Below are positions 11,604 to 46,774 of a stretch of 64,000 nt of DNA, in pieces (position 1 is the stretch's first letter; each line of letters starts with the position of its first letter). Under the pieces are notes generated by a model. It was not told the origin of the DNA, did not search any database, and saw only the letters and a list, made by a program, of their open reading frames with translations. The position numbers were made by a program, and so were the translations under genes. This stretch comes from Deltaproteobacteria bacterium HGW-Deltaproteobacteria-15. Lineage in GTDB: Bacteria; Desulfobacterota; DSM-4660; Desulfatiglandales; HGW-15. The stretch lies in the NCBI GenBank assembly GCA_002840535.1, contig PHBH01000002.1:1-64000 (forward strand). Direction: 5' to 3'.

Positions 11604-14474
11604 TCAGCTTCCCTCAGTTCCATTTGAAATCCGCTTTCCATCTTTTGCTTCAAGCCGAAATGCAAGACTCTGTGCGGCCCCTTCTGGGAAAGGGATCCGA
11701 TCTGCCATTCTTTCGGTGGTTCGAAGGTCTGTCTTATAATTCTCCCCCATCAGGACCCTAAACCACCGCTCTCGATCCGTAACCACCCGGTACATCTTTT
11801 CATCCTGGGTCTCTGCAATGAATGGTAAATAGACGTTCAACGGGAGCCCGCAACGTTCAATCTTTGCACCGATCCTGTCGACACGCCCTGTCCTCTGTTC
11901 CAGAGTACTTGGGTTCCAGCAAAGATCGTGATGGATGACATGCCGGCAACATAGGTGGAGATCAACTCCCTCTGCCATCACACTGCTTGCAATGAGGACC
12001 TCAGGATAGAAGGGGGTATTGAAGGTGAGCATTAGTTTCTGCCTCGTTTCCGACTTTACGTCCCCGTTGACCAATCGTACATTCGGAACGAGCCGTTCGG
12101 TCCTTTCTCCCTGGAGTTCATCGAAATTGAAGGTCTTGCCAACCTCCGCCCCAAAGTAGGCGCCGGTTTGTACACTTCCTGCTGCCTTGATGTAGTTTTC
12201 CCGTTCCGCACTTCCGCATTTCTTCTGAAGAAAAGAGAAAAACTCCTCCAATATCCCTTTAAGAGTCTGCCCGGAGCCATCCTTCGTAGTCAGGGCCTGG
12301 TACATGGACTCTTCAGTAAGTCGCTCCTCGCTCAAAGGAAAATAGCGGACAAGGAAGGTCGGGGTCCTTACGTAGCGGCGGACGACGTCCACAAGTTCCC
12401 TATCGTGCATAAGAAGATCAGGATAGCCCTTCAGGATCTCCATGGTGGCATCTTCGCAAGCCTTCCGAATTGGGGAATCCCTGTCGAAGAACCGGACACC
12501 CAGTCTTTCCAGTTCCTCCAGCACGTCGGACTCTCCGCATCTTAGCTTTTTCGCGCCCAAAGTTACCGTATTCCATCGAATGGCTTCAGAAATATGCTGG
12601 CGCAAGCTTCGGCCTGTTGCGATGTAATGGCAGAACACCAGGACTTTCTCTCCAGCTTTCCACGCGTCAATCACTCTCTTGACAGTGCCATCGATTTTCG
12701 GATGCAGCCCTAGGGTTTTTCTCTCCTCGATTGTGAGAAAAGCGTCCAGCCTTTTGAGGTACCATTGGGCAACCTCATCAGTGGCGGTGTTCTTGATTCC
12801 CTCATCATCGGAGTCTAGAACCTCCTCGATGTTCGCCCCCTCTAGTCTTGCCGTACGACGGGTGAGAATAAAGGCTTCGTAGCTCGAAGCAAGGCCCTCG
12901 GCAAATACTGGGCGTGATTCCGGCCTGCAAGCGACCGCCCTGGCCGCAAGAAGAAAAGGCAAAACGTGATTTCCGGATACAGGAATGCCGAATGCGTCGG
13001 TTGCTTCATTCCCTGGAAAGATCGCTTCGCCTATCAACAGCTTTCTCCGTTTGCTTCCGCAAAAAGGCTCGGGCAGCACTTTCGATTTGATGTGCCTGAT
13101 TACCCAGGGGATCAGACTCTCCTCAGCTTCGCGCATCCTTGTCTCGACGCGTCTAAAACACTCTAGAACCCGATTCGCCTGGGTCGTACTTGGAACTCCT
13201 TTCGACACGCCTTCCCACCACCTCGCCACGTCATTGACCGGTTTCCCATCGATGGATACATCCTCCTTCCTCAGGTGGCCCCAAGCATAATCCAGGCTCA
13301 TCGCGGCTTCCTGAGCCGCATCGAGCCTGGCGCGCAGGCGAGAGACTGTCTCTCGGAAAGTCTGCTTCCCTCCTGCCGGGGATGCCTTGACATTCCATGC
13401 GATCCCCTCAAACCTCTCCAGGACGGAGCAGAGTTCATGATGACCCAACTGAAACGGAGTTGCGGTCATAAAAAGCATCCGTTCGAACACACCCCCGAGA
13501 GCACCCTTTATCTCCTCTGCATCACCTTCAGCATCAGGCACCTGAAACAATGACGCCAGCCGTGTCCTGGCGTTTTTGAGATGATGAGCTTCATCAAGGA
13601 CAAGCAGAGGCAAATTGAAGTTCAGGTTTTTCAGACATATATGCCACAGACTCCTAAGTTCTTGATTCAGCACTCTCCGGGCTTCCACTACCCTTTCTTC
13701 ATAGGTCTTGCTTTGCCTATACGGTATACCCTTTAGCGCCTCGTAGACACTCTCAGCTTTGATTTCACGTAGTGTCTTTATGATCGTATTTGGCACAGGA
13801 TCATCGTCGTTTTCAGCGTTCTTGTCTCGTTCTGGATCAATGCCGAACCGGCGCATCGTCTTCAACCAATTCTCAGGATCTGTTTCAAGCAATCTCTCCC
13901 AAAGGTCCGGAGCCTTGGTATCGACCCATGATGACATTAGAAGCTTTCCTAAGACCCTGCAAAGTGCCCGACGCAACAATCGAGTATCTCGACGATGGAA
14001 TAGAGACCTCTGGACAAGTGCGAGCTTCACCCAGGGATCTGTCAGGCCTGCGCTCATTGCACCATGGGTCAGGAATATGATCGAGCAGCGTCGGTCCGGA
14101 GGGTCATCAATCAGCTTGAGGAAATCCACCCCCCGCTCGGCATGGCCGCTCTTCAGCAGGATTGCCATATCCTCAGGGAGGCATCTCTCTTTGAAAAGTT
14201 CGAAGTCCCGGGGCCACTTCTCCCTTAGGGACGAGGGGACCATCACAACCACCGGTCTCATTTGTTTGTCTGCCAACGCAACTGAAACGGCCACTGCCAA
14301 CGCGACAAACGTTTTCCCCATACCTACTTCATCGGCCAGGATGATGCCGGGTTGAGATTGCAGTCTGCCCAGAAGATCGCGTGCCGTTCGATCCTGACGA
14401 TTGGCATCTGCAGAGGATATCCGGCTCTCCACGTGGAGATTAATGCTGTCGCAGTAGTTGTAAGTCCAGCTCAT
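11604..14474 (-). CDS. SNF2/DEAH-type helicase (defence)
   Basis: A 956-residue superfamily 2 ATPase of the SNF2/RapA kind. Walker A is ADEVGMGKT (about residue 47-55), the DEAH box is VLDEAHHLK (about 291-299), motif III is FMTATPFQL, and the C-terminal lobe has ASSVMAEGVDL and EQRTGRVDRIG (about 860-870). An insertion of roughly 180 residues between motifs I and II is unusually long. Such enzymes translocate on double-stranded DNA. The gene overlaps the upstream phospholipase D-like gene by 4 bp (ATGA), so the two proteins are probably made together and may act in one complex. Confidence 0.88.
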   Translation of the reverse strand: MSWTYNYCDSINLHVESRISSADANRQDRTARDLLGRLQSQPGIILADEVGMGKTFVALAVAVSVALADKQMRPVVVMVPSSLREKWPRDFELFKERCLPEDMAILLKSGHAERGVDFLKLIDDPPDRRCSIIFLTHGAMSAGLTDPWVKLALVQRSLFHRRDTRLLRRALCRVLGKLLMSSWVDTKAPDLWERLLETDPENWLKTMRRFGIDPERDKNAENDDDPVPNTIIKTLREIKAESVYEALKGIPYRQSKTYEERVVEARRVLNQELRSLWHICLKNLNFNLPLLVLDEAHHLKNARTRLASLFQVPDAEGDAEEIKGALGGVFERMLFMTATPFQLGHHELCSVLERFEGIAWNVKASPAGGKQTFRETVSRLRARLDAAQEAAMSLDYAWGHLRKEDVSIDGKPVNDVARWWEGVSKGVPSTTQANRVLECFRRVETRMREAEESLIPWVIRHIKSKVLPEPFCGSKRRKLLIGEAIFPGNEATDAFGIPVSGNHVLPFLLAARAVACRPESRPVFAEGLASSYEAFILTRRTARLEGANIEEVLDSDDEGIKNTATDEVAQWYLKRLDAFLTIEERKTLGLHPKIDGTVKRVIDAWKAGEKVLVFCHYIATGRSLRQHISEAIRWNTVTLGAKKLRCGESDVLEELERLGVRFFDRDSPIRKACEDATMEILKGYPDLLMHDRELVDVVRRYVRTPTFLVRYFPLSEERLTEESMYQALTTKDGSGQTLKGILEEFFSFLQKKCGSAERENYIKAAGSVQTGAYFGAEVGKTFNFDELQGERTERLVPNVRLVNGDVKSETRQKLMLTFNTPFYPEVLIASSVMAEGVDLHLCCRHVIHHDLCWNPSTLEQRTGRVDRIGAKIERCGLPLNVYLPFIAETQDEKMYRVVTDRERWFRVLMGENYKTDLRTTERMADRIPFPEGAAQSLAFRLEAKDGKRISNGTEGS

Positions 14475-16534
14475 GCTAATGCCTCCAAGAAGGCTTCTTC
14501 AGTGTAGCGCTTCAGGCTCGGGATAGATTCCAAGGACCTATCTATCACTTGGGTTTTCAGTTCTTTGACGATATTTCGGATCTCCTGTTTTAGGATGGCA
14601 GGGTCAAGAGAGCCGGGTGTCGATGCCGGCTTTACTCTTGAGAGCTCCAGCGCAAGTTCAGCAAGGAGAAAGACCTTTTCTTCTTCTGATCTGCCTTCTT
14701 TCAATATGGCTTCAGCAACGGCTCTCACGCCCACAGGCCCATACAGTCTCCAATGAAGATTGGCCATTGTTGGGAAAGGTCGTTCAAGCCTGTCTCTAAG
14801 GCCCGTGAGGGCGCGGGAAATGCGCCGGGTTCGCTGGAGAAGGAATGCAGATGTATCTACCCTCTTGTGCGGATCACCGATTTGATCAACCCCTGGCGTC
14901 GGGCCATTCTTCCTGGACAGCCATCCCTTCATGGCCTGGTGGAGAGGCCTTGCGGAGGTAAGAATATCGATCAGCACTTCCAACGGCAGTTCCCTGAGCT
15001 CATCCGGTGGGGGGAGATCTGTGGGCAATGAAATATTTACAGGCAACCACGCCTCGCCTGCTGAATCAGTCCATCTGACAGAGAATCCTGACGGTGGTCT
15101 CTTATGAGCCCAAGCGAGGAGGATATTTGCAGGAGAGCCACTTCCTACCCACTCTTGCTCGCTATAAAAAACTTGGTGAGAATCCTCAATCAGGATTTCC
15201 CACCCCTTGGGAGGTGCACCAAGTAGTTCCAGTTCGACCTGATGCTTTCCATCTTTGTCTGCCGAGTAGATCGCCGCTCCGAATGCGGCGGGAAGCAGTA
15301 CTACGCCCGAAGATGCCTGGTCACCATCCTGAATGGGATCCCATTTGAGTTGTGCATCTCCATCAAAGGGTCTGGCCGGGGGAAAGCTGTGTCTTAATGC
15401 CTTGAATAGAGAGCGGTCGGAGTCGTATCGAGCGAGATATACAAGATTTGCCTCCAGATTGGGGGCCTTTCTGATGCCGTATCCGGCACTGGTGAAATTG
15501 CTTGAGCCGACCATGTACGCTACCCAGGATGCATTGCTCATCCATAACGCTTTCGCGTGAAGGGGTCTGGTTCCTTCCAGTTGCAGTTGTCGAATTTCCG
15601 TTGACACACCCGGCCGATTCGAGGGTCCTGCTTTCAACAGGTTCTCAGGGGCACGTATTCGCATTGTCTCTTCCCCTTCGATCTTCTCGGCAACCAAATC
15701 AAATGTGACAGTTGCCTCCCCCCGTTGCCTGAGCAATCCCCAAAGCTCCTTTGCAGGACGATTAGGACCGATCCCCTCGTCAAAAAAAGGACTGACCACC
15801 TCCGCTAAATCAGGGGGTGAACCGGGAGGCCAGAGGCTTCGGAGCTGTTCGAAGGCGCTCGGCCTGCCGGGGCCTGTTAACACCGCTGCAATGCCGATTT
15901 CTCCTGATCGTCTTCTCGTCTCCAGGGTTCCCCATGTTTGGACCGTGGCGCTAGCCTTGTCGAGCAGAGCCTGCAGGCGACCGACGGCCGGGTTCACCTT
16001 TGTATGCCTTGGGTTCACATAAGTGGCAGCCTCTCGCAGGAAATCTATAATCCCTTTCAGGCATTCTGTCGGGGCCTCTTTCATGCCAGGTTGGAATTCA
16101 AGGATCCCAAAGATTTCCTGATTTCTTCGGTATCCATCGTCCGTCAGGTTTGCCGAGGTAACGATCACTCGGACAAACTCACTCCAATGAAGAAGCGATA
16201 CCTTTGCGTGGAGGAAACCGCTTCCGAGCCGGGCAGAGAGGAGATCCCACCTGAGGCTCCGGAAACCCTTGCAGTGGTTCTGGTCAACCAATGCAGCTGC
16301 ACAAATGACTTGAGAGAGTTTTTCCTCCCGCTCCACCAGATACAGTGGCCCGTCCTCTGCAGGATGGGTCTCAAGCCCCAGAAAACGGCCCAGGCATTCC
16401 TCTTCAAAAAAGACAGGGGAAAAGGTGAAGGTAGTGGCAATGCACCCAACCGGATCCCCTGCAGCATCCGGAGGCTCCCAAGCGGCGAGCAGTTTCCCAT
16501 ACCCCTGCTTCTTCTCACTGTTATTCTTCCCCAT
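14471..16534 (-). CDS. Phospholipase D-like nuclease
   Basis: A 687-residue protein with two PLD half-sites: GFLHAKVSLL with VTSANLTDDGYRRNQE (about residues 107-140) and PLHAKALWM with VGSSNFTSAGYG (about 325-352). The His, Lys and Asn residues of the two HxK…N motifs are present. PLD-fold enzymes of this kind in defence loci are usually nucleases, cutting through a phosphohistidine intermediate. The C-terminal 250 residues are helical and unassigned. It overlaps the helicase gene by 4 bp and the upstream unknown gene by 14 bp. The pair may form a translocating nuclease. Confidence 0.82.
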   Translation of the reverse strand: MGKNNSEKKQGYGKLLAAWEPPDAAGDPVGCIATTFTFSPVFFEEECLGRFLGLETHPAEDGPLYLVEREEKLSQVICAAALVDQNHCKGFRSLRWDLLSARLGSGFLHAKVSLLHWSEFVRVIVTSANLTDDGYRRNQEIFGILEFQPGMKEAPTECLKGIIDFLREAATYVNPRHTKVNPAVGRLQALLDKASATVQTWGTLETRRRSGEIGIAAVLTGPGRPSAFEQLRSLWPPGSPPDLAEVVSPFFDEGIGPNRPAKELWGLLRQRGEATVTFDLVAEKIEGEETMRIRAPENLLKAGPSNRPGVSTEIRQLQLEGTRPLHAKALWMSNASWVAYMVGSSNFTSAGYGIRKAPNLEANLVYLARYDSDRSLFKALRHSFPPARPFDGDAQLKWDPIQDGDQASSGVVLLPAAFGAAIYSADKDGKHQVELELLGAPPKGWEILIEDSHQVFYSEQEWVGSGSPANILLAWAHKRPPSGFSVRWTDSAGEAWLPVNISLPTDLPPPDELRELPLEVLIDILTSARPLHQAMKGWLSRKNGPTPGVDQIGDPHKRVDTSAFLLQRTRRISRALTGLRDRLERPFPTMANLHWRLYGPVGVRAVAEAILKEGRSEEEKVFLLAELALELSRVKPASTPGSLDPAILKQEIRNIVKELKTQVIDRSLESIPSLKRYTEEAFLEALA

Positions 16535-17849
16535 GGACCATCCCCAGATCTTTTATGAACGACCAAAGAGGTCGAGTCCGATACGCGTTCACATACCTGC
16601 CATCATGACTGCCACCCTCGTAGCGGAGATAGCCGGGTCGAATTACTACGCTGCCATCATCAAAACGCTCGAACCATGGATTCTTCCCGTTTGGGGGTTT
16701 TTGCATCTGGATTCTCCGATGATGATCGATCAGGCTGACGACCCATGTCTCAGCGCTTCCTCTCGCTGACACTTCTGCGAATTGTTCCTGAAACCGATAC
16801 GTCTCTCCGAACGGAGAAAGGAGGTCCGCAACAGCCGGGAAAAGATCAGGCAGGAGTTGACTCGCTTTTTGAACGCCTGCCCTTTTGCTAAGATCCGCGG
16901 GGGAGGTTTTCCCTCGTGTCTTCGTCATCTCGTAAAGACAGTCTTCGAAGGCGTCTTGAAGCAGTCTGGCGAATCTTTCATATGCTTGGATAGCCTTCAA
17001 CAAGCTCCTTAAATCGCCACCAGTCTCCGTGATGAGTCCTGAATGGAAGTCCCCCTCAGATTTCCCACTCTCAACCACTTCCCTGCACAGACTCTCCCCT
17101 GTTTTTGAGGCCATGAAGCGAATGATCTCGGACCTGTACCCGGACGTTCCACGTATCAGCGAATCAATGATTACTTGGGCCTCCCCCCGTTCGAACCGAT
17201 AGGGCGCCAGATGGTCCCGGAAAAAATTCCATCCTTGCCAAGCAGTCGATCTGGCAACAGCACCCTTCTCTATGCCATCCTCAATGGCAGATCGAAGCAT
17301 GTCTCTAAATGCTCGGCCAGGCCCTGCCTTTGAATCAAAGAAACCCGTCAACCGTTGTTCATTGGCCCAAGTTAGAACTAGATTGTACCCGGTTTCGCCC
17401 AGCCGACCGTCTCGTACGATATCCAGTTCGTCAGCCAAGACACGGTAGACGCCATGAAACCCGAAAACGGAAGGAGTTTTCAGGTAACGACGGGCCGATA
17501 GGGGCACTCCCTCGTCAATCGCCGAGGTTGCCTTATCAACGCCGGGTAGCCCCCTGATCTCTTCTCGCGTGCCTCTGAGAGTACGAACTAACCCTTCAAC
17601 CAGATACCATTCGAAAACCTGCCAGGGAGGGCTGACCCCGTCTTTGGCCACTGCATCATCATCGAAATCGCAGCAGACTGCGCTAGCCACAGCCATGGCC
17701 GTCAGGAAACGAGGATGAGACTGCCTCTCCCGAACACCTGGGGCGAGGCGAACACCTAGGGAATCAGCGATTGCATACACCCCAAGTGGATCTATGCTTC
17801 CTTCACTCGATGTCTCAGGGTCGGCTTCTGTAAGCAATGGCAAGAGCAT
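16521..17849 (-). CDS. Unknown 442-residue protein of the helicase operon
   Basis: A mixed alpha/beta protein without a recognised domain. I chose the ATG at 17847-17849 because GGAGGT lies 5 nt before it; an in-frame GTG 12 nt upstream falls inside that ribosome binding site. Residues such as FEWYLVEGLVRTL and SVFGFHGVYRVLADELDIV look like a helical, possibly winged-helix region in the N-terminal third. The end overlaps the PLD gene by 14 bp and the nuclease-like gene lies 42 bp upstream, so it is part of the same unit. Its tight linkage to the helicase and PLD genes suggests a specificity or assembly subunit (inference only). Confidence 0.75.
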   Translation of the reverse strand: MLLPLLTEADPETSSEGSIDPLGVYAIADSLGVRLAPGVRERQSHPRFLTAMAVASAVCCDFDDDAVAKDGVSPPWQVFEWYLVEGLVRTLRGTREEIRGLPGVDKATSAIDEGVPLSARRYLKTPSVFGFHGVYRVLADELDIVRDGRLGETGYNLVLTWANEQRLTGFFDSKAGPGRAFRDMLRSAIEDGIEKGAVARSTAWQGWNFFRDHLAPYRFERGEAQVIIDSLIRGTSGYRSEIIRFMASKTGESLCREVVESGKSEGDFHSGLITETGGDLRSLLKAIQAYERFARLLQDAFEDCLYEMTKTRGKTSPADLSKRAGVQKASQLLPDLFPAVADLLSPFGETYRFQEQFAEVSARGSAETWVVSLIDHHRRIQMQKPPNGKNPWFERFDDGSVVIRPGYLRYEGGSHDGRYVNAYRTRPLWSFIKDLGMVHGEE

Positions 17850-17891
17850 TCTTACCTCCACTCAGTTACTATGGGGCCCTCTCAAGTCTTA

Positions 17892-18548: not shown

Positions 18549-18628
18549 GAGGATTCCCTCCTATTCCATCCTGTTCATTTTGATTACGGCGTTCTTCTCC
18601 TCTTTCTTCGACAACTTTATCATGCCGT

Positions 18629-18647
18629 TTTGACATATACGGTCAAA
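18629..18647 (-). promoter_or_regulatory. Palindrome TTTGAC-N7-GTCAAA (operator candidate)
   Basis: A 19-bp inverted repeat with 6-bp arms. On the minus strand it contains TTGACC, a plausible -35 box, followed 19 bp later by GATAAA. A protein bound here would block transcription of the nuclease/PLD/helicase operon. The same palindrome, with the same TACG in the spacer, occurs at 46775-46793 in front of the WYL regulator gene. Confidence 0.6.
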
Positions 18648-18695: not shown

Positions 18696-21491
18696 TTACC
18701 GCGCAGGCACGTCAAGGCAGCCCAGCAGTTCCTCGGGTTTCACGGCCAGCTCCGAAGAGGGTCTCAATACATCTTGTGCTAAACTTTCCTTGGCTCGAAT
18801 AAGCTCCTCCAATCTCTCCTCGACGGTGACGAACCTCTCGTCTTTCACAATTGGATAATAGACCTTCACTGGCTTGTTCTGCCCAATACGGTGCACCCGG
18901 TCTGTGGCTTGGTTCTCTTTCGCAGGGTTCCAAGGTCTGGTGTAGTGAATCACGTGGTTAGCCGCCGTGATGTTCAATCCCACCCCTCCCACCTGGTGTC
19001 CGAGAATCAGCGCGTTGAATCCCTCCTTTCTTGAGAATATGTCAATGATCATCTGCCTGTTCCCCGTGATCTCTCCATTTATGATATCGGGCCATACCCC
19101 GAATTTTTTAAGGATGGCCTGCTGGAGGATTCGCTGAACCGCCTTGAAATCAGTGAAGATGATGACCTTTTCAGAGGCTGCCTTCACGGCCCCGATGATC
19201 TCCATTGTCATTTGGAGTTTGGGGCAAGCTGAAGGGGAAGGATCTGCCCCCTGCTTCAGGCCATTCAAGGCCGACGGGTGGGCACTGACAATGAGCAGTC
19301 TTTGGATTGCGCCGAGCGCTGCGCCCTTACCACCAGCTTTGCCAGCCCTTGCAATTTCGCGATATAACTCAAACTGCTCATTACTCAGGGGGACCTCCCT
19401 GAATTCAGATTCCTTAGCCGGCAAGGACTTCAGGTACTCAGATTTCATTCGCCTCAGGTAATAGCCCTTGATCTGTTGGAGCAACTCCTTGACATGATTT
19501 TCCCTCTCCGGCTCATCGCCTGTCACAATCGGTCGCTCGTACTTCGAGCGGAAATTAGCCCAACTTCCCAACAGCCCAGGCTGCACAAAGTCCATGATGC
19601 ACCAGAACTCAATGAGCCCATTCTCCACAGGAGTTCCGGTCAGGGCTGCACGGTGCCTTGACTTCATCGCCTTCACTGCGCTGGTTCTCTGCGCTGTGGG
19701 GTTCTTCACGAACTGAGCCTCGTCGCATATCACCATGGTCCAGGGCACGGTGCCTAGTCTCACCTGATCCCGGCGAAGGACGTCGTAGGTCGTGAGCACC
19801 ACGTCGAATCTGCTGGTTGAGGATTCACTTATTGCCGATCCCGCCCCTACATACGCCCATACACTGAGGGACCCGTCTGAGAAGTTTTGAATCTCCCTTA
19901 GCCAATTCTCAATTAGGGTCTTTGGGACCACGATCAGATGCGGCCCGTTAACTCCGCTCTCTTTCAGGTGAAGGAGATGCGCAATTGCCTGAACCGTCTT
20001 CCCCAGGCCCATATCGTCGGCCAAAAGACCGCCGATCTGGCGATTAGAGAGTCTTGTCAACCATCGATACCCATCCTTCTGATAAGGATGGAGGTCCCCT
20101 ACGAAACTGCCCGGGACATCTAATTCGGGCAGGTCATCTGGTAGTTGCGTCTCCTCGACTGGCAGGGATTTCTTTTCTATGAACTCAAGAAGTTCCAGAT
20201 TGTCGTAGATCTCAAGAAGGCTTCCAGCGGGTATGATCAAATTTCCGTTCTCTTTTCGCTCCAAAGATTCGACGGTGCCCTGAAATCTATCTGCAACATC
20301 AGTGTCAACCCGTATCCATGAACCTTCATGTAAGACATATTCGTCTCCGCTCTCCTTGGCTTTGCGCGCCAATTCTTGATATGTCTCAGGGGAAAGATTG
20401 GCCGGAGCACCGCTCGACGTGGCCTCCGCCGATTCCTCTCCAGGTGACCAGTCATCCAGGCTAATTCCCGGTATTCCTTCAAACCACCCCCCTTTTGATT
20501 TGGCGACATGAATGTAGGGCCTGGAATTGTAAACCTTCGTCTTAATCCCTTTGACCCGCTCGCTGAAAAGAGAGAGGTCAAAGCCTTCGGGCAGAATCTG
20601 ATCGGGGTTTGTCAGGAGCCTCGGAACAGCTGAACCTGTGACCTTTCCCTGGGGTGGCAGTTGAGAGAGTTTCTCTCGAAGATGACTGTCCAACACAAGG
20701 CGCTTCCTCTTGGTGGGAGAGGTCGCCTTTGTGAGGACCGGAGGGGGTGCTTCCGTTGCCAGGTGTTCTGCGGATTGAAGATCATATTCTTCCAGCCCCT
20801 CCACGACGGGGACCACAGTTATTTGCTCCGGTGAGTCCTCCCTTAAATCCAGCTTCGCATCTGCCCTGAACTCGTACTCTTCATTGCTGAGATACCCGTC
20901 CAGTTTCGCATCCACAGCAACGGCTGCCTCCTTGCACTTGGCGAGATAGGCCATTCTCTCTTCCATTTTGGCCCAGTCCACACCGCTGCCTTGTGCTAGA
21001 TCGAACAGTTTTTTCTGCGCTGGGGTAAGCGGGATGATAGTGGATTGGTCTTTCAAGAAAACAGGCCCTATCCGCGGAGGGTCGCCTTCCCGGAGCGGGC
21101 CCCAATGGGGATGTGATGCTTCCACCCTTATTCGAAACCCAGGGTCGCCCACGTGGGATGAAGAGACTGCTTCCATCTTCATGGGCATCGCCAAGGGCAG
21201 GCTCAGGGATTCAAAAAGATCTTTATCCTCTTGAGGGTCGTAGCGATCATAGATATCAAAAGGCGCCACCCATGACCCAGGACCGTTCTCCTTGAGGAGG
21301 CCGTCAGCCCAGATATGATCCAAGGATGACCAGGCAGCACCATCTGGCAGCAGCTTTGCCACTATGCCCGGGTCATTGTTGCTCAGGGGGAACACTGGGG
21401 CGACAGGTCCGGCGATATCAAAGACGATCCCACCTGGGGTGTACCTTTTCTTGAGCGTGAGGCCTTTTTTGGCTTTAAGAAAGTCAATCAT
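18696..21491 (-). CDS. zorD: ZorD: Zorya SNF2-family helicase/nuclease subunit
   Basis: A 931-residue protein with a C-terminal SNF2-type ATPase: ADDMGLGKTVQAIAHLL (about 493-509), VICDEAQFVKN (about 590), LTGTPVENG, LILGHQVGGVGLN and QATDRVHRIGQNKP (about 865-878). The N-terminal 450 residues are family-specific. In type I Zorya, ZorD is the cytoplasmic effector that loads onto and degrades invading DNA after the ZorAB motor senses infection. It overlaps zorC by 8 bp and ends the four-gene operon. Confidence 0.92.
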   Translation of the reverse strand: MIDFLKAKKGLTLKKRYTPGGIVFDIAGPVAPVFPLSNNDPGIVAKLLPDGAAWSSLDHIWADGLLKENGPGSWVAPFDIYDRYDPQEDKDLFESLSLPLAMPMKMEAVSSSHVGDPGFRIRVEASHPHWGPLREGDPPRIGPVFLKDQSTIIPLTPAQKKLFDLAQGSGVDWAKMEERMAYLAKCKEAAVAVDAKLDGYLSNEEYEFRADAKLDLREDSPEQITVVPVVEGLEEYDLQSAEHLATEAPPPVLTKATSPTKRKRLVLDSHLREKLSQLPPQGKVTGSAVPRLLTNPDQILPEGFDLSLFSERVKGIKTKVYNSRPYIHVAKSKGGWFEGIPGISLDDWSPGEESAEATSSGAPANLSPETYQELARKAKESGDEYVLHEGSWIRVDTDVADRFQGTVESLERKENGNLIIPAGSLLEIYDNLELLEFIEKKSLPVEETQLPDDLPELDVPGSFVGDLHPYQKDGYRWLTRLSNRQIGGLLADDMGLGKTVQAIAHLLHLKESGVNGPHLIVVPKTLIENWLREIQNFSDGSLSVWAYVGAGSAISESSTSRFDVVLTTYDVLRRDQVRLGTVPWTMVICDEAQFVKNPTAQRTSAVKAMKSRHRAALTGTPVENGLIEFWCIMDFVQPGLLGSWANFRSKYERPIVTGDEPERENHVKELLQQIKGYYLRRMKSEYLKSLPAKESEFREVPLSNEQFELYREIARAGKAGGKGAALGAIQRLLIVSAHPSALNGLKQGADPSPSACPKLQMTMEIIGAVKAASEKVIIFTDFKAVQRILQQAILKKFGVWPDIINGEITGNRQMIIDIFSRKEGFNALILGHQVGGVGLNITAANHVIHYTRPWNPAKENQATDRVHRIGQNKPVKVYYPIVKDERFVTVEERLEELIRAKESLAQDVLRPSSELAVKPEELLGCLDVPAR

Positions 21492-22677
21492 TTTTCATCA
21501 GTGTCTTGATCTTGGAGGAGGTTCCGCTCTGCCAGCCCTCCCTGTGGATTATCCTTCCGTCCCACCCCCTGTAACGCCGGTTACTTATCGTTTTCTCTTT
21601 GTCTTTAAAGCGACTGACATGACTTTCGCGGTCCGCCCTTCTCCAGTATGTGCCAAAAGCATTAGCCGGGTAGATATAAGCCGCATTTCCAATGTTCTTG
21701 AATTCCACGACCCCGAATGGTCCGAAATCAATCATAAAACCGTCCCCCTCGAGGATTTTCTTCACGCGAGCCACCTTGTTCTCGACCACATATCTTCTCC
21801 AGAAGTCGGCCCTTTCTCCCTCGAAAAACTCCTGGATCCGCTGAAGCATGATCCATGTTCTAAACTCCCTCTTGGGCTCAGGTTTGACGTTCTTCCAGAA
21901 GGGCGTTTCAATTTCATTTTTGTCAGGGTCTGACGGTTCACCATATTTCTTTTCAATGAATCTGAGGATTCGTTCGTCCCACTTCGCAATGGACTGAAGA
22001 ACGTTAAGATAGCGTTGGCAGAACTGGGCCAGGTACTTTGCATTTTCAGGCTTCCTGTATTCGAGCAGCATCCGTTCAACGTCTTCCTTCTGAAGACTCG
22101 TTGCACGTCCTTGTAACAGGAGCAGCCGCCATACCTCCTTGAACATTCCAACTTTTCGATTCAAGAAATTTGCTTCCAAGTAGGCATCAAGGTTTTTGTG
22201 TCCCCCAGACCCTTCGTAATCCCGCAGAATGCCTTGAGACACTCGTTCAGACACAAACCAGAGGTGCACGCGCTTCGATACATTCTCCAGCCCCGATAAT
22301 GCGGCAAAACCTGATGCTTCGAGATTCGCCCGTATAACCTTCTCCAAGAGGTCGTGCGGGTAGTGCAGAATAAGTTTGAACCAGCCAGCGCGTATTAAAT
22401 TGTCCCGGGGGCGCACCATCAGGACTTGGCACGCCTTATCCGCCACTTCTTCATCTCTTTCGGTCACCAGGATTTCCAGACAAGCCAGGAGGCGGCTGGC
22501 ATCGAAGCTGTAAGCGAGGTCGGCAAGTCTCTCACGATTACAAGCCCGGAGTCTCTCACGCACTTCTTCGAGGATGGTTTTGGTCGGAGGGTCGGGCCTT
22601 TTGCCTCGGATGGGGTGCAACTGGCGCACCATTTGAAGGGCAGCCTCAAGCCTGTCTGTGGTCACTTCGATTCTCAT
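21484..22677 (-). CDS. zorC: ZorC: EH-signature protein
   Basis: A 398-residue protein. The ATG at 22675-22677 overlaps the zorB stop (ATGA) and is preferred to an upstream in-frame start. The central and C-terminal parts carry the EH-signature type of sequence (LVTERDEEVADKACQVLM, HKNLDAYLEANFLNRKVGMF, RVKKILEGDGFMIDFGPFGVVEF). ZorC occurs only in type I Zorya, where it acts with ZorD on DNA. Position between zorB and zorD and the size fit the system exactly. I see no sign of damage. Confidence 0.88.
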   Translation of the reverse strand: MRIEVTTDRLEAALQMVRQLHPIRGKRPDPPTKTILEEVRERLRACNRERLADLAYSFDASRLLACLEILVTERDEEVADKACQVLMVRPRDNLIRAGWFKLILHYPHDLLEKVIRANLEASGFAALSGLENVSKRVHLWFVSERVSQGILRDYEGSGGHKNLDAYLEANFLNRKVGMFKEVWRLLLLQGRATSLQKEDVERMLLEYRKPENAKYLAQFCQRYLNVLQSIAKWDERILRFIEKKYGEPSDPDKNEIETPFWKNVKPEPKREFRTWIMLQRIQEFFEGERADFWRRYVVENKVARVKKILEGDGFMIDFGPFGVVEFKNIGNAAYIYPANAFGTYWRRADRESHVSRFKDKEKTISNRRYRGWDGRIIHREGWQSGTSSKIKTLMKND

Positions 22678-23387
22678 TCCCCTCCAATGATCTGCTTGAG
22701 TATGCGAAGAAACTCTTTTAGCACTTCCCTGTCGTTCAATCGGATGGCGATTTCCACCCGCCGGGCGGCCGCACATCTGTCCCCTACGCACTCGGCAGGA
22801 TACCTTGTGTCCGAATACCCCGCGCTGACAGCCTTCCTCTTCAGAAAATCTGTGTAAGCGGACATCATTGGCTCCTTCATCAGAAAACCCAAGACTTGTC
22901 CGGCGCGCTCCCTAGAGAAATACGGGTTGACTCCCCTGGAATCTTCTCTGTCTGTGTGCCCTGAGATCTCTATGACCTCTATCCTGTCAAGGAACTTGGG
23001 ATACCTGTGTATAACCCCCATGTACTTTGGGACAGCTTCCCTAAGGACTTGTTCAGCTTCCTGACCCAATTCTGTTCGTGAAAAGCCAAAACGGAGGTTT
23101 TCGTCACTTATGATGAGCGCGCCGGTATTGCAGTCGATTTGAACATTTTCCATCTTCGCCAGGTCCGGGTCGTGGCAGATCTCGTCGAGGACTTTCTCCC
23201 ACTCCCTGACAGCCTCTGTCGGCTCAACGAGACGCGCGCCTATGTCAAGGAGGGTTATCACCGTCGTAAGGGCAAAAATCATCAGAAGCCCTGCCATCAA
23301 GTCGCTATACGAGGCCCAGAAGGTCTCGGGCCTGGAAATCGCCCTTCTTGGCCCCCAACTCCTTCGTTTTCCACCTAATGGTATCAT
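22674..23387 (-). CDS. zorB: ZorB: MotB-like stator subunit
   Basis: A 237-residue inner-membrane protein. One N-terminal transmembrane segment (SYSDLMAGLLMIFALTTV, about residues 27-44) carries the Asp needed for proton flow. A periplasmic OmpA/MotB-type peptidoglycan-binding domain follows, with ISGHTDRE, NPYFSRERAGQVLGFL and AARRVEIAIR. In Zorya, two ZorB subunits plug the ZorA pentamer and anchor it to the cell wall. It overlaps zorA by 4 bp and zorC by 4 bp. Confidence 0.93.
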   Translation of the reverse strand: MIPLGGKRRSWGPRRAISRPETFWASYSDLMAGLLMIFALTTVITLLDIGARLVEPTEAVREWEKVLDEICHDPDLAKMENVQIDCNTGALIISDENLRFGFSRTELGQEAEQVLREAVPKYMGVIHRYPKFLDRIEVIEISGHTDREDSRGVNPYFSRERAGQVLGFLMKEPMMSAYTDFLKRKAVSAGYSDTRYPAECVGDRCAAARRVEIAIRLNDREVLKEFLRILKQIIGGE

Positions 23388-25657
23388 TTGCCTTTAATCC
23401 ACCCGAACAGACCCTTCCGGGCCTCAGGCAAAGTAATTGTTTGTTTCAAATCGTCCACTGACCGAACGAAACCGCCCATGGACTCCCCAATCCCCTTCAA
23501 TTCAAGGAGAACATCATTCTTAATCTGCTCGGACAGGACGTTTGCCGCTGCTGCAACTACTTTTACGTTTCTCAACAATTCCTCTGAGGAAGGGCCGTCC
23601 CCTCCTGAAACTTTTTCTATGGCAGATCGAAGGTCTTTCATTGTTCCATTCAGCTGATCCAATGCTTCTGATGTTTTCATAACGCCATCGCCTGCCGGCT
23701 GACTCAGTTCAATTCTCGTGATAATGGCACTTAACTCTCTCAGCGCCGATTGAAGAGCCCCATCCTGACTAAGAGCCTTCACGCTTTCATCGAGCCTTGC
23801 CAAGAATCCTTCAGACCACTCCCTCAGTTCCACCCGGTACGAGTCCGCCTTCTCTCCTAGATCACCCCCTGTCGCGCTGATCTTTTGAAGCTTTGTGTCG
23901 AACCACTCTTTTAGGACATCTGCGGAGGTCCTGATCTTCTCTGCGACCAGAGAGAGTCCGTGGAACGCCTCTGTGGCCTTCTCGACGTTCGGTCCCATAA
24001 CCTCTTTTGAAGCCGTAGTCAATTCTCCTAAAAGGCTCCTCTGTCCAGCGATTTCCGAACGAATGGATTCAAGTGTCTGTTGTGATTGGTTGAGGATCTG
24101 CGGGAGTTCCTGGATGACCTGTCCGGCCTCGAACATCGTGCCGCTGAAACGCTCGACGACTTCCGCAATCTTCCCGTCGAAAGCGTTCAAGGCGCCGTTA
24201 AGCTGTTCTCCAATACCCTCGCCCAGTTCCCTTATAACCTCTCTGATAAGATTGACTGTGGAGCCAGCGTCCTGGGTGATCGTCTTCCATGCCCTTTCAA
24301 GTTCTTCACGGGTAGTGGTCATGGCCTGAATCTGCATGTCCATCGATTTCTTCAAGACCTCTTGCCCTTCCATGGACTTGGAAGCTGCCTCCTTGAGGAG
24401 TTTCGCTGCAGTGGCTATGGCGTCGGCAGATGATTTGAGTTCCTTGGAGATGCCTTCAAGGCTATCGAGGCTCTCGTGGAGGATCTGCCCGGCCCTGCTC
24501 GTCTTCTCTATCAGTTCGCTCTGAACCAGAAACTGCCTCTGAAGTTGCTCTGTAAACCGAACCATCTGATCTCGATTCTCAGCCTGAACTCTTGTCGTCT
24601 CCTCGATAATGCGGCCCATCTCCTGAAACTGAGATTTGAAGGCCGTGTTCATCTTTTCCACATACTGAGCCAGGACGTTCTCCATGGCTTCAGACTGCTT
24701 CTTCTGCGAATCCGAGAAGTGATTCGCAATTATCTTCCCCATTTGTTCTACTTCACTCTTGAAGCCGCCCAAGGTTTCCATCTGACGCGCACTCAAGGTC
24801 TTTACCGTCTCTTCCAACTGAGTCCTCAGGTCCCCCATAACGGGAACCAAATTCTTTACAAGGGCTTCGTCCAGGGCCGGCGCTATGACATTCGAAATGC
24901 TTGTCGCCACGTCCGTGGCCAAGGTCTGTAGGCCCTGCTTGATGTCTCCCTGAAGCTCCATGTACTTCCTGGCATAGCGCTCATAGGAAGAATAGGGGAA
25001 AAGCTGAGACACGACGTCATTTAGAACGAATACCGCTTTCTCGAGGCGACGGATGAAAAACCTGTAGGAGAGGGAAAAGACGACCGAGAGAGAAATCCCA
25101 AGGAGAGAGGTGCTGAAGGCAAGAGAAAGCCCTGAAATGAGTTGCGCGACACCTTCTTTAAGGTTCGACAATTCATCGATCTTCAGGCCCTTCAATCCCA
25201 GCACTAGGCCCAGAAAGGTGCCGAATATACCGAGGGCCACAAATATTCCGGGCAGGGCCTCTGCAACTCTGCGATTGACTGCCCTGTCGAGGGCCACTTC
25301 CGGGGTAAGGTGATCTATGAGCTGAACTGGAGTTGCCGCCCTGTTCTCACCAGGGAGGCGAGACTCTTCCCAGGTCAGGTAAAAACTCTCGAAGTATTGC
25401 CTTGCCCACGAGGTGTTGCGTAGAATACTCGGTCGAGCTTTACTTCTTTCATCGTCAACCTGGTTCCCTTTTCTGAAGTGTCGCCTGACAGAATTTATGT
25501 TCACCAGCAGCTGTATCCACCGCAAGATGACTGGAACGAAAATCACGATGCAGAATAGCGCGAAAAAACAAAACATCCCCAGCAGATAAGCTATTGTAAG
25601 CCCACCCATCTCCTGGCTTTGCCCGGGGATGAATTCAATGATGGAGTCCAAGATCAT
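23384..25657 (-). CDS. zorA: ZorA: MotA/ExbB-like channel with long tail
   Basis: A 757-residue membrane protein. Transmembrane segments appear at about 18-50 (IAYLLGMFCFFALFCIVIFV), 133-156 (LPGIFVALGIFGTFLGLVLG) and 167-196 (LISGLSLAFSTSLLGISLSV), matching the MotA/TolQ/ExbB fold. From about residue 220 onward it is a long, helical, largely heptad-like tail, the cytoplasmic ZorA tail thought to signal phage sensing to ZorC/ZorD. It is the first gene of the operon, although its ATG overlaps the stop of a short remnant frame by 4 bp. Confidence 0.93.
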   Translation of the reverse strand: MILDSIIEFIPGQSQEMGGLTIAYLLGMFCFFALFCIVIFVPVILRWIQLLVNINSVRRHFRKGNQVDDERSKARPSILRNTSWARQYFESFYLTWEESRLPGENRAATPVQLIDHLTPEVALDRAVNRRVAEALPGIFVALGIFGTFLGLVLGLKGLKIDELSNLKEGVAQLISGLSLAFSTSLLGISLSVVFSLSYRFFIRRLEKAVFVLNDVVSQLFPYSSYERYARKYMELQGDIKQGLQTLATDVATSISNVIAPALDEALVKNLVPVMGDLRTQLEETVKTLSARQMETLGGFKSEVEQMGKIIANHFSDSQKKQSEAMENVLAQYVEKMNTAFKSQFQEMGRIIEETTRVQAENRDQMVRFTEQLQRQFLVQSELIEKTSRAGQILHESLDSLEGISKELKSSADAIATAAKLLKEAASKSMEGQEVLKKSMDMQIQAMTTTREELERAWKTITQDAGSTVNLIREVIRELGEGIGEQLNGALNAFDGKIAEVVERFSGTMFEAGQVIQELPQILNQSQQTLESIRSEIAGQRSLLGELTTASKEVMGPNVEKATEAFHGLSLVAEKIRTSADVLKEWFDTKLQKISATGGDLGEKADSYRVELREWSEGFLARLDESVKALSQDGALQSALRELSAIITRIELSQPAGDGVMKTSEALDQLNGTMKDLRSAIEKVSGGDGPSSEELLRNVKVVAAAANVLSEQIKNDVLLELKGIGESMGGFVRSVDDLKQTITLPEARKGLFGWIKGK

Positions 25658-25821
25658 TTTAGTCGCTCGTTTCTCGTTAAGACTTTACAGGTGTGAAGGG
25701 CAATGACTCCGCCTGTCAGATCCCTTGCCCTGAAGCACTGCTGGATGGCCATCCAGATTTTATTCTCGGTATCTTTTGCCCCGCTGAAGTCAATACCGTA
25801 TATGGACCGAACCGCAACCAT
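25654..25821 (-). pseudogene. DUF429-like N-terminal fragment before zorA
   Basis: A 55-codon frame starting ATG at 25821. Its beginning (IYGIDFSGAKDTENKIWMA) looks like the first strand and nucleotide-binding loop of DUF429/RNase H-like proteins, which are normally over 200 residues. After about 45 residues the sequence no longer fits and the frame stops with TGA inside the zorA start (ATGA). It may be a remnant left by recombination at the edge of the Zorya cassette, or a short leader coupling translation into zorA. Confidence 0.45.
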
Positions 25822-25970
25822 TAGCCATCTCCAACACCCAAACCTTAGGGTCTCCCCCTATTGTTCACAGGTCTTCGCTTTCGTTAGCAGTCTTGGGTCC
25901 GCCAACTAGCTTTTGATCAGGGAACTCCCTGCTCTTCGATGTCTAGATTTCCTGTTGTCGAGAACCATGT
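25822..25970. other. Spacer before the Zorya operon
   Basis: About 150 bp between the AAA+ ATPase gene and the fragment in front of zorA. It probably holds the zor promoter for the minus strand. I found no boxes good enough to mark and no gene. Confidence 0.4.
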
Positions 25971-27122: not shown

Positions 27123-27171
27123 GAATACCCCCTGTGACCGGCCATGCCCCAAAAGCAAAGGGAGAAAGTAG

Positions 27172-33000: not shown

Positions 33001-33125
33001 CACCAGAGGTGCAGGGTCGAGATATGCCCCTTACGGACGGACTTCTCCCTCGACGCCTCGGCGCTTATCGCCTGGATGGGCAGGAAGTCCTCGATGAGGC
33101 GCTTGTCATTGCCGTTGTTGCTCAT
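30081..33125 (-). CDS. DUF1156 adenine-specific DNA methylase
   Basis: A 1014-residue DNA methyltransferase of the DUF1156 (COG1743) kind. The N-terminal family motif HLWWARRP is at about 39-46. The SAM-binding motif is DMFAGGGAIPLEALRLG (about 147-163) and the catalytic motif is TDPPYYDN (about 590), indicating N6-adenine methylation. A zinc ribbon is suggested by CKNPSCG and CPFCG in the middle. A DUF1156 methylase coupled to a DUF499 ATPase and a SNF2 helicase is a known recurring defence-island grouping of the modification type. The target site cannot be read from sequence. Confidence 0.9.
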   Translation of the reverse strand: MSNNGNDKRLIEDFLPIQAISAEASREKSVRKGHISTLHLWWARRPLVACRAAVYGALVPASRFIPENGPDNKKQSLGRANAAKFMKRLCRYPSDSKSVQKADIELAVKEAQRHILEAHAERLTEETGKKVTAEDIEEGRAPRPKVLDMFAGGGAIPLEALRLGCEAYAIDLNPVAHIIELCTLVYPQKYGKPDLNVRGMAGPKNAKGETTWGGLGNEVRCWGEWVLKKVKDEIGDLYPSVPDPKAPSQELAPGKQGTLFKNPTGQQKLTIPGGYLTPVAYLWTRTVQCKNPSCGATVPLVRQTWLCKKKGRYIALKIVAPKGENKVRFEVIEATKEKELRFDPAAGSKGGNANCPFCGTVADSQYVQLEGTAERVGFQPIALACRLPGKKGTTFLNSHDLPSEILSLNEEIQDRITMLIERSGLSLPMENISSVRPSPNARGLSAPTRHGLSKFSDLFHPRQILSLLAQCESVRSAFTAMRNEGLSEEYSKAVTTYLGILVDRMADRGSSMCRWDPGYTKTQSTFGRPALPFVWDFSETNPFGDASGDMRQAIDWIVSVIVELTRIYTPAVVERGSALRLPHAESSFHAIITDPPYYDNIPYGDLSDFFYVWLKRAIGNLYPEHFSSDLTPKKSEATALASRFGGDMRAASSSYEEMMLAAFQEARRVLKPGGLLAVVYAHKTTLGWSTLVDALRRAGFTVTEAWPLDTEFGGRLVSQDSAALASSIFLIARKREGFLTGSYEENVRPDLEKIVRERVDSLWKMGITGADLVIAAVGAGLRAFTRFSRVEYSNGEEVPAERFLAEVEGVVLETLLGKIFGVTGSSVAAVDGASRFYVLWRYTFKAAEMDAGEAIVFTYGQNVELDGQNGLSSGSRALVEKKKGKYRLRDFTERGDDDKMGAFKDDGKTAPLIDTLHRILWLLENQPRNLNQFLDEARPNRESLRLIAQALAGTALAGKIDGESEHTHTVSTTPAEQAALKKLVANWRSLIEERLSDIDLKTGQYRTRDLREES

Positions 33126-33180
33126 GAGTTCTGATCCTTAGGGCGGATGGACGAGACAGTTGGGGATTCGGCCGGCCGCG

Positions 33181-34842: not shown

Positions 34843-34844
34843 GG

Positions 34845-43869: not shown

Positions 43870-46245
43870 CTATCCCGGAAAATGGACATGTTGTTGAACG
43901 AACTTCTCCGCCCAATCCCTGATGTCCCTGTCTCCGATCTTCGCCCGGAACCGGAGGATAAACTCGAAGAGCCATTCTCTGCTCTTCTCGGCGACAGGCT
44001 CCCAGGTTTGCCGTCCCTCCGGGAACACTCGCTCCAGGATCGTCATGGTCACAGCCGTGGTCAGCAGGAGGCGGGGATCCTCAAAGCGACGAATGTCAAC
44101 AAGAGGGACCCGGACCGTCAGGTTTCCTGCTGCACGTTCGATTTCGTTGAGGCTAAAGCCGAGGAGTCCTGCAACCTCGTCATTCAGTTGGAACCCTCCC
44201 CTGGGTTGCTGACATGACAGGATCATCATCAGGATGTCATCCCGCATGGGCAGCTTTGGTGGGGGCGCCGGGGCACGGACGCGGAGCTTGGGAAGTCTCG
44301 TGATTTCATTGAAACTGTGCAGGCTTTGCACGGGGAGATCCGCAAGAGAAAAGGAAACATCCGCATCCATGGATATGGAAAGCATCTCCTGCGCCGCATG
44401 ATGACGCCCTGTCAAACTCCCGATCCCATGCCATCCGACTGTGACAAGTGATGGGATTTTTTTCAGCACTACCTCGCCCGTGTACCTGTCCTTTTCTTCC
44501 AGTTCCCGGACCGCCACGTAGCTGGTGCTCTGAGAGAGGATCCCGTACTGCTTGGAGAGCGCGATAACCTCCTTTTCGACAGCGGCCTTTTTTCTTCCTG
44601 CCTGTCTGGAGCCCTTCACCCCACGCCCCTCCTCGAGGTTCCGGATCCTCTCCCTCGCCCAGAGGGTGGGGATAGGGAGACCCTCCTCCCCAGCCTCGGC
44701 GACCTCCACCTCCCAAGTCCTCTTGGAGCCTTTCACATTGCCCTTGAGCGTGAGTTTCCCTTTCTTGAACTCCCCCTTTTTCCCCTTCACGAAAATGGTT
44801 GCCTGCCGTCCCAGGAACACCACGGGGTCGGATGGCGCCTGCTCGCCCTTGCAGGAAACCGTGAGCTCCGTGACGGGTGCCTGGCCGAGCAGACCGAACA
44901 GCTGTATTGTCTTGGGCTCAATCCGCTCCCCGGGGTAGATGAACTCTGAAGCGCCCATGCCTGCCCTGGCAAGCCCCTTGATAAAGTGCTCGTTGCACCC
45001 CGCTCCGATCCCGATGGGGAACACCCTCGCCACGTCCCATTTCTTCTTCAGGAGTTTGAAGATCTCCGCTTCGTTCCCTACCTCCCCGTCTGTCAGCAGG
45101 ACGATGTCCCTCCCCCTGTTCCCTTGGCCGCCGTTCCCGGAGAGGATATCCCGGAGCGGTTTCAAGATCTCGGTCCCACCGAGGTCAGCATCCATTTTCC
45201 GCACGTACTCGAGGGCCTTCCCCACCGACTCCCCGTTGTACAAGACGGGTGCCGGGAACAGGGATTCGTGTCTGGACCCGAAGCGGCAAATGTTGAAGAG
45301 GGCGCCCTCTTTCATGGCCTTCAGGCAGATCTCGACGGCCTTCCGAACCTCGGCAATTGAGTCCCCGTCCATGGAGCCCGAGCAGTCGAGCAGGAAGATG
45401 ACCTCACGCTGCCTCTTGGTTTCTATTCCTCCGCTCTTCTCTTCAGCCGGAGGACAGAAGTCGACCTGCAGGAACTCCCCGTCATCGGTGGTCTGCCTGT
45501 AGGCCCTGCCGGCCGGATGGCCTTCCTCCTCTAGGTTCAGGATGAAGTCGCGGTCCATCCGGGCCTCCTCCTGTGCGAGGGTCACCTGCAGGATGTCCCC
45601 CTTCAGCCTCTCGACCTTGATCGGATGGCTCGGGGACTCGACCGAACGCAGAAACGACCCCTTCCGGATCTGGACCGTCAGGGAGAGCCCATAGGGGACC
45701 TCTTCGGCATAGGGTGGGTGGATCACCTCGTCTTCGGGGATGCCGTCCCCGTCGGGAGTTTCACTGGGCAAATATCGGGGCGAAATGGTTGTGGGCAGGA
45801 GGAACCTGGTGACCTTCCCGTTCGTGTCGAGCAGGGTTACATAGTCCACCCGGATCACGGCCTCGGCCCCTGGGTCGATTCTCCCCACCGAGAGCGTGAA
45901 GATGTTCGGCCGTTCCTGGTCGAGGAGGGTCGCGAGGTCGCCCTTTGTAAGCGCTTCATCGTAAAGCTCAAAGGCCTTCTCGCGCTCCTCCACCTCGCCG
46001 CGGATCTCCCTCCCGCTGATCACACCCCCGAAGCCGCATACAGCCGCTCCCTCGGTCAGCGGGAACTTGTAGACCGCCTCGATGTGAGCGCTCCCCCTGT
46101 TCCGGAACCGCTGGGTGATCGTTACCCTGGCGCCGCGGCCGACGACTTCCGCACTCGCCTTCACACCCTCGAGCGGGACCTGAATGGACTCTTCCACCTC
46201 CCCATCGTTTACTATGTAGAGACCGCACCCCTCATTCATCCCCAT
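43870..46245 (-). CDS. VIT/VWA-domain protein
   Basis: A 791-residue protein. The N-terminal 150 residues carry a VIT domain (EVVGRGARVTITQRF, YKFPLTEGAAVCGF, KAFELYDEALTKGD). A von Willebrand A domain follows from about residue 280, with an intact metal-ion site D-x-S-x-S (LLDCSGSMDGDS) and LLTDGEVGNE. The C-terminal 250 residues are helical, with a proline-rich stretch (PAPPPKLP). VIT/VWA proteins bind other proteins through the metal site. No signal peptide is visible, so it is probably cytoplasmic and may serve as a scaffold for the nuclease/ATPase pair encoded downstream. Confidence 0.88.
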   Translation of the reverse strand: MGMNEGCGLYIVNDGEVEESIQVPLEGVKASAEVVGRGARVTITQRFRNRGSAHIEAVYKFPLTEGAAVCGFGGVISGREIRGEVEEREKAFELYDEALTKGDLATLLDQERPNIFTLSVGRIDPGAEAVIRVDYVTLLDTNGKVTRFLLPTTISPRYLPSETPDGDGIPEDEVIHPPYAEEVPYGLSLTVQIRKGSFLRSVESPSHPIKVERLKGDILQVTLAQEEARMDRDFILNLEEEGHPAGRAYRQTTDDGEFLQVDFCPPAEEKSGGIETKRQREVIFLLDCSGSMDGDSIAEVRKAVEICLKAMKEGALFNICRFGSRHESLFPAPVLYNGESVGKALEYVRKMDADLGGTEILKPLRDILSGNGGQGNRGRDIVLLTDGEVGNEAEIFKLLKKKWDVARVFPIGIGAGCNEHFIKGLARAGMGASEFIYPGERIEPKTIQLFGLLGQAPVTELTVSCKGEQAPSDPVVFLGRQATIFVKGKKGEFKKGKLTLKGNVKGSKRTWEVEVAEAGEEGLPIPTLWARERIRNLEEGRGVKGSRQAGRKKAAVEKEVIALSKQYGILSQSTSYVAVRELEEKDRYTGEVVLKKIPSLVTVGWHGIGSLTGRHHAAQEMLSISMDADVSFSLADLPVQSLHSFNEITRLPKLRVRAPAPPPKLPMRDDILMMILSCQQPRGGFQLNDEVAGLLGFSLNEIERAAGNLTVRVPLVDIRRFEDPRLLLTTAVTMTILERVFPEGRQTWEPVAEKSREWLFEFILRFRAKIGDRDIRDWAEKFVQQHVHFPG

Positions 46246-46621
46246 CCCCTCCTCTCAGAATCGACCTTGCCAGACGAACAACCTCTTCAACTCTCTTTCT
46301 CCTCTTCTCATCCAGATCCCGGCTCACATGAATCTCGACACCTTCAACCACCGGGTATCTGACCCAAATCTCTCTTAGCGGCGGCAACTCCGATCTCACA
46401 CCCCTTTTGAGCACCTGCTGGATGTCCGAAAGCCTGAACCTCTTCCCCTGGTAAGCTTTTATCTCTTGGAGTTTTCTCAAATGACTGTCAAAATAAAAGC
46501 CCCCCCGCCCCCTTCCCGCGGGAGGCTCGATAAGTCCCTCCTGAACGTAATAGCGTATGGTACGTCGGGTAAAACCAGTCATCTCGCAGAGCTCATCTAT
46601 GGTGTATTTCCTCTCTTCCAT
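46232..46621 (-). CDS. MerR-family regulator
   Basis: A 129-residue protein with the MerR winged helix at the N-terminus (YTIDELCEMTGFTRRTIRYYVQEGLI then PPAGRGRGGFYFDS) and a helical C-terminus (KRRKRVEEVVRLARSIL) without effector-binding cysteines. MerR proteins twist promoters with long spacers to switch genes on. It overlaps the VIT/VWA gene by 14 bp and heads the five-gene operon, so it probably controls its own transcription. A promoter with a dyad in its spacer lies directly before the start codon. Confidence 0.85.
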   Translation of the reverse strand: MEERKYTIDELCEMTGFTRRTIRYYVQEGLIEPPAGRGRGGFYFDSHLRKLQEIKAYQGKRFRLSDIQQVLKRGVRSELPPLREIWVRYPVVEGVEIHVSRDLDEKRRKRVEEVVRLARSILRGGDGDE

Positions 46622-46657: not shown

Positions 46658-46774
46658 GCATTTTTTTACTGGTGTTCGGTCTGGGATCCAATGTAATGAA
46701 TCGATGCGAAATCTAAGCATGCACGGCTGCGGCTCCGCACCTTGCCGGTTTTCTGGTCCACCTTACAGGGGGTC

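Follow-up and report, generated by a model that had tools for sequence, protein, structure and literature searches.

We found that two palindromes in a 64-kb window (64,000 nucleotides, the whole stretch of DNA analysed here) belong to a conserved promoter element, which is also found before CRISPR-Cas and other antiviral operons both in this genome and in many related sulfate-reducing bacteria. Judged by sequence kinship and by analogy with characterised regulators, the palindrome is likely the binding site of a WYL activator of the DriD/PafBC type, which would serve defence operons that are not linked to one another. One WYL-family protein probably switches on scattered defences in the fashion of a DNA-damage activator.

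The palindromes are present at 18629 and 46775, where a preliminary description of the window had placed them, and they are identical at 17 of 19 bases rather than at the 16 of 19 given there (Table 1). With up to two mismatches allowed, the 64-kb window contains 5 matches to the pattern where 2.78 are expected, which is only mildly unusual. Because the match was only modestly surprising at this scale, we extended the search to the whole genome (6.98 Mb in 106 contigs, searched by pattern). The genome-wide scan, which the preliminary description had proposed, returned not many random copies of TTTGAC-N7-GTCAAA but only four exact ones: the two window sites and a pair on another contig (C55, at 61321 and 61546), which are 225 bp apart and both upstream of a type I-C cas3.

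Table 1. Coordinates of the two candidate sites, the genes behind them and the WYL gene in the window.
Feature	Position	Strand	Basis or remark
Candidate operator/promoter, site 1, minus-strand reading TTTGACCGTATATGTCAAA	18629..18647	-	faces the helicase operon
Extended –10 of site 1, TGA TAAAGT	18614..18622	-	conserved spacing, TGTC to TA 16 bp
First gene behind site 1, 218 aa	17892..18548	-	no Pfam or PADLOC match
446 aa protein	16521..17861	-	weak PDC-M27A match, E 6e-4
PLD-domain protein, 687 aa, ZacB / PDC-M27B-like	14471..16534	-	Pfam, PADLOC
SNF2/DEAD helicase, 956 aa, PDC-M27C / ZacC-like	11604..14474	-	Pfam, PADLOC
Candidate operator/promoter, site 2, minus-strand reading TTTGACCGTACCTGTCAAA	46775..46793	-	points away from the WYL gene
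–10 of site 2, TAAGGT	46760..46765	-	conserved spacing
MerR-family regulator, first gene behind site 2	46232..46621	-	domain match
VIT/VWA-domain protein, 791 aa, putative site 2 target	43870..46245	-	domain match
Calcineurin-like metallophosphoesterase (Mre11-like), 420 aa	42317..43579	-	domain match
AAA_27/SMC-like ATPase, 1167 aa	38824..42327	-	
WYL regulator (HTH_11-WYL-partial WCX), 281 aa	46913..47758	+	Pfam HTH_11 3.6e-9, WYL 1.2e-20

The consensus TTTGACCGTATCTGTCAAA recurs throughout the order. A refined pattern, TTTGACMKNNNCKGTCAAA, has matches in 25 of the 85 genomes of the order, and its reversed control has 0 matches in those 85 genomes. When the pattern was extended by the –10 and one mismatch was allowed, 15 of 395 phylum genomes matched, as compared to 0 of 395 for the reversed control. 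From the names of related records, we placed the group that bears the element in the Desulfobacterota (Desulfobacterales and relatives).

Alignment of 53 sites with their flanks revealed an asymmetric element that forms part of a promoter. With the –10 set at –12 to –7, the operator (positions 1–19 of the consensus) lies at –40 to –22 with its dyad centre at about –31; an A-rich tract lies upstream of it, at about –56 to –51. Downstream, T26 G27, T29 A30 and T34 are conserved and form an extended –10, TGnTAnnnT (TG at –15/–14, T–12, A–11 and T–7), in which TAnnnT stands at one identical offset in 41 of the 53 sites and TA follows TGTC at a distance of 16 bp. A canonical –35 is absent from the 53-site alignment: there is no –35 consensus, and the stretch from –35 to –30 reads CCGTAT. 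The TTGAC(A/C) box of both window sites, which the preliminary description had pointed out, is off –35 distance relative to the conserved –10. We rejected a sigma-70 reading with TTGACC as the –35 and a –10 located 16 bp on, since position 25 has no conserved A whereas T29 and A30 are conserved. As first written, the palindromes show the strand complementary to that of the promoter; each of the two window promoters would therefore fire on the minus strand.

We scored sites with a PWM. It was built from fixed-core sites, so that part of the conservation within the core follows from its construction; the –10, the A-tract and the central bases were left free. The two window sites score 33.0 and 32.5. 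A third near-copy in the window, at 48063, has one mismatch, scores 18.1 and reads as a TTGACA-17-TACACT promoter of the methyltransferase at 48126; because of this low score and plain promoter reading, we set it aside as an ordinary promoter that resembles the element by chance. Matches at four further loci (L109, L115, L116 and L117) are without a proper –10 and were treated as probable chance, and both cas3 sites of the window genome have imperfect –10 elements.

That the palindromes are a chance similarity or a dispersed repeat of no regulatory meaning is barely credible. Near-matches are common enough within the window alone, and some genomes do contain copied promoter cassettes of about 155 bp; this reading is nevertheless contradicted by the order-wide conservation, by the empty reversed controls in 85 and in 395 genomes and by the non-orthologous defence operons found behind the sites. 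The sites are also intergenic, they have a conserved –10, and their flanks are mostly unrelated beyond about 30–60 bp. When we read ten chance one-mismatch copies in the same genome, nine were inside ORFs of 238–494 codons, while the longest ORF overlapping a consensus site has a median of 60 codons.

To describe what the element precedes, we scanned downstream genes against PADLOC and Pfam or compared them with identified Cas3. The cas3 downstream of the two exact C55 sites is a type I-C Cas3c (E 7.7e-201), and the genes that follow it look, by their order and sequence, like cas5, cas8c, cas7, cas4 and cas1, followed by a repeat-rich array. Elsewhere, I-C Cas3 is found behind the site at four loci (L036, L097, L103, L107) and behind a variant site at L297, I-E Cas3 or Cas8e at three (L093, L110, L038), I-G Cas3 with Csx17 at L096, and type III genes at two, III-A Cas6-Cas10 (L094) and Csx1-Cas10 (L092). 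Other genes behind the site are DrmD (L083; DISARM-type), DruE with DpdE (L100; Druantia-type), the PDC-type genes PDC-S06 (L101), PDC-S02 after a transposase (L102) and PDC-M26A (L090), the HamB-like (L088) and Mokosh-like (L104) helicases, DUF499 with a DUF1156 methylase (L113), SoFic (L087), a PDC-S65 SIR2 with an HmaA-like helicase (L119), and HmaA-DUF262-like-HmaB (L302). By our own count, a defence-model gene is among the first few genes behind about two thirds of order-level sites, and CRISPR-Cas operons lie downstream of 12 of 39. About a third have no recognised defence gene downstream; these remaining sites face genes of non-defence type (MFS, MMPL, CsgG, aldo/keto reductase-like) or ARPP-1 divergent from WYL. 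As a small control, we took ten chance near-palindromes in the same genome; the genes found there yielded 1 PADLOC match in 10.

Wherever a defence gene is recognised nearby, the orientation of the site fits it. Of about 24 cas3 genes above the family cut-off in a set of 37 genomes, 12 have a site facing the gene from no more than 2.5 kb upstream; the cas3 genes of G005, G055 and some other genomes have no site, so not every cas3 in WYL-bearing genomes has one. The closed genome G033 has five full-architecture sites, which face a III-A CRISPR system, a I-G CRISPR system, HmaA/HmaB, an IrrE/CapP-like peptidase and a I-E cas3, the last with several kilobases between the gene and its site. In one genome (G438, locus L312, at 4929), a site precedes ligT-recA-recX, a possible link to the DNA-damage response. 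Because the site stands before recA in only 1 of 26 genomes, we dropped the idea of a general link to recA.

In the window itself, site 1 faces the helicase operon, to which the preliminary description had given a PD-(D/E)XK label; Pfam gave no confirmation of this label for the first two genes. We found nothing useful in the literature on ZacB/PDC-M27. Between the two sites, the stretch from 18696 to 38354 is a dense defence island with ZorA, ZorB, ZorD and a weak ZorC match, an IetA-like AAA protein, and HmaA, HmaB and HmaC-like genes. Site 2 is asymmetric and has a –10 on one side only, and so it would drive the minus strand, away from the WYL gene and into the operon of the MerR, VIT/VWA and nuclease genes. 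The autoregulation of the WYL gene put forward earlier is therefore probably wrong: the WYL protein probably does not repress its own gene. The MerR gene has a sigma-70-type promoter of its own, TTGACA-17-TATTTT at 46657–46629 on the minus strand, with the dyad ACAGTGAACTGT; given this promoter besides site 2, the MerR gene would be under tandem control. A phosphoesterase-like and ATPase-like pair of similar size is also present behind a WYL-linked site in another genome (G037, L039).

To relate the element to the WYL family, we took 72 WYL-family loci for which 300 bp or more of upstream sequence was available and counted as a site any PWM score of at least 20. At 35 of the 72 loci, the 600 bp before the WYL gene contain a site, as compared to 8 sites in all remaining DNA (binomial p about 1.5e-36). 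Across the order, sites are present in 14 of 18 genomes with the WYL family and in 11 of 67 others (Fisher p = 1.9e-6, a value that treats the genomes as independent although they are not entirely so). No second WYL-domain protein was found in the window genome, and G033 likewise has a single one. The preliminary description had proposed that two distant parts of the island form one regulon; the linkage and co-occurrence strengthen this proposal, and the regulon would extend to type I-C CRISPR-Cas on another contig. At 31 of the 35 loci, the upstream site points away from the WYL gene, and in a subclade of about 50% identity it faces the gene.

It is improbable that a different regulator, such as the window MerR or another factor, reads the palindrome and that the WYL gene is only its neighbour or target. 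Two genomes, G067 and G078 (95% complete), have four and three sites but no WYL protein of the window family, MerR genes lie directly behind the site both in the window and at L091, and MerR proteins act at long-spacer promoters, all of which would fit another reader. However, the linkage and co-occurrence are with the WYL family, and the operator core equals that of DriD. We set MerR aside as the reader, since the dyad centre at about –31 is outside the middle of the –35/–10 spacer and the window MerR gene is preceded by a promoter and a dyad of its own.

The preferred reader, a WYL activator, is suggested by the relatives of the family. In a PDB profile search, the WYL family matched PafBC (4e-18) and DriD (2e-14) far better than BrxR (0.012) and CapW (0.022), and a Foldseek search with an AlphaFold model of the WYL protein, a modest one (pLDDT 78, pTM 0.45), ranked DriD first. 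By sequence and predicted fold, the family is nearer the activators DriD and PafBC than BrxR and CapW. DriD of Caulobacter crescentus is a homodimeric WYL activator whose operator, ATACGAC-N7-GTCGTAT, overlaps the –35 at a constant distance from the –10 in promoters with a poor –35, and it is switched on by single-stranded DNA (PMC12340889), as is PafBC. It is the closest solved fold to the window WYL model and among the closest by sequence, and it shares with the present system the HTH-WYL-WCX layout, the GAC-N7-GTC operator core, the fixed distance to the –10, a –10 context with a conserved G–14 and the poor –35. In contrast, the half-site flanks differ (TTT here, ATAC in the DriD operator), and DriD targets few DNA-damage genes (didA, bapE, recJ, dnaG) where the targets here are mostly anti-phage systems. 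PafBC, which acts in mycobacteria by sigma adaptation (PMC11804915, PMC5656591), is the closest to the window WYL protein by sequence profile, and its motif, tTGTCRgtg-8 nt-TannnT (PMC5656591), likewise has TGTC at –26, 16 bp from a TAnnnT –10; however, PafBC is a heterodimer with a non-palindromic motif and a DNA-damage regulon, as against a single protein and an almost perfect palindrome here. SiwR of Mycobacterium smegmatis is a WYL activator with a 19-bp imperfect palindrome between –35 and –10, before a target that adjoins its own gene, and requires R38 and R42 (PMC10693628); these residues of its recognition helix correspond to R38 and R42 (RxxxR), which are invariant in our WYL family alignment (A1), although SiwR controls one neighbouring operon of DinB-like genes.

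The preliminary description had the WYL protein as a repressor. A repressor of the BrxR (BREX) or CapW (CBASS) kind would block RNA polymerase on these extended –10 promoters, leave the DNA on infection and repress its own gene too. We consider this unlikely, even though these phage-defence WYL regulators do bind palindromic operators in defence promoters (PMC9122601, PMC9122589, PMC9122588), the operator covers the promoter core in a way that would be workable for a repressor, and the site of the subclade described above faces the WYL gene. The strict –10 spacing and the missing –35 are what is expected of an activator that contacts RNA polymerase, whereas repressor sites usually vary in position, and most WYL-linked sites point away from the WYL gene. 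BrxR and CapW are only marginally similar to the window WYL protein in sequence and repress the operon next to them, in contrast to the unlinked targets here, where the geometry of the promoter points to activation. We infer activation from the fixed –10 spacing, the lack of a –35 and the relatedness to DriD and PafBC, and repression as previously claimed is probably wrong. The Gac/Rsm defence regulon of Pseudomonas resembles the present one in that one regulatory system steers a genome-wide, variable set of defences (PMC11888443), but it works by the Gac/Rsm pathway and has no WYL protein or shared promoter element.

In the activation model, a WYL homodimer would bind the half-sites TTTGACCG and CTGTCAAA at –40 to –22 wherever a promoter combines an extended –10 with the lack of a usable –35, and would hold the housekeeping sigma factor and RNA polymerase there. 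Its targets in the window genome would be the M27-like helicase operon (18629), the MerR/VIT-VWA/nuclease operon (46775) and, on another contig, the type I-C CRISPR-Cas operon. Its trigger, by analogy with DriD and PafBC only, is probably DNA damage or single-stranded DNA, as from phage attack. We lean, with less assurance, towards a broader reading in which one WYL activator that responds to damaged or single-stranded DNA would govern a pan-immunity regulon across the whole genome in Desulfobacterota, with CRISPR-Cas of several types and many unrelated defences under one promoter element, and newly acquired operons would join by gaining or copying the element.

To our knowledge, known WYL defence regulators act on the adjacent operon, and a search of the literature for a named defence regulon gave nothing useful. 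New here is a regulator that appears DriD/PafBC-like in sequence and whose putative regulon is made up of scattered defence systems. One promoter code joins several CRISPR-Cas types and many unrelated systems that lie scattered, so that the co-ordination of a bacterial immune arsenal becomes directly testable. The element can also be used as a search tool, with uncharacterised operons behind the promoter as candidate defence systems.

The window WYL gene has an in-frame TAG at codon 282, while its relatives are 337–353 aa long. The frame past the TAG, to about 47870, still matches the WCX end of the relatives, and the TAG removes the end of the WCX domain, which is complete in the relatives and truncated here. 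We found no pyrrolysine synthetase above the cut-off in the genome, and read-through of the TAG by pyrrolysine is therefore unsupported. With an in-frame TAG and no such synthetase, the window copy may be decaying or altered: it may be in decay, it may function in its shortened form, or there may be an assembly error at this point.

Promoter segments of about 155 bp that contain the site, mostly 94–99% identical, stand before five unrelated genes in G067 and G078 (L100, L101, L102, L111 and L112), and one copy carries an insertion; such similar segments before unrelated genes suggest that the promoter itself was copied, as a cassette. At L039, the gene divergent from WYL and behind the site is ARPP-1 (PF20208); it looks alike at L114, L042, L121 and L122, and ADP-ribosylglycohydrolase-like genes are near several of these five loci. 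In the cultured Desulfatibacillum alkenivorans DSM 16219, one member of the WYL family stands at the head of a Zorya operon and another at the head of a type I-E cas operon (L190, L192), and a diverged copy of the site is present upstream of each of these two WYL genes.
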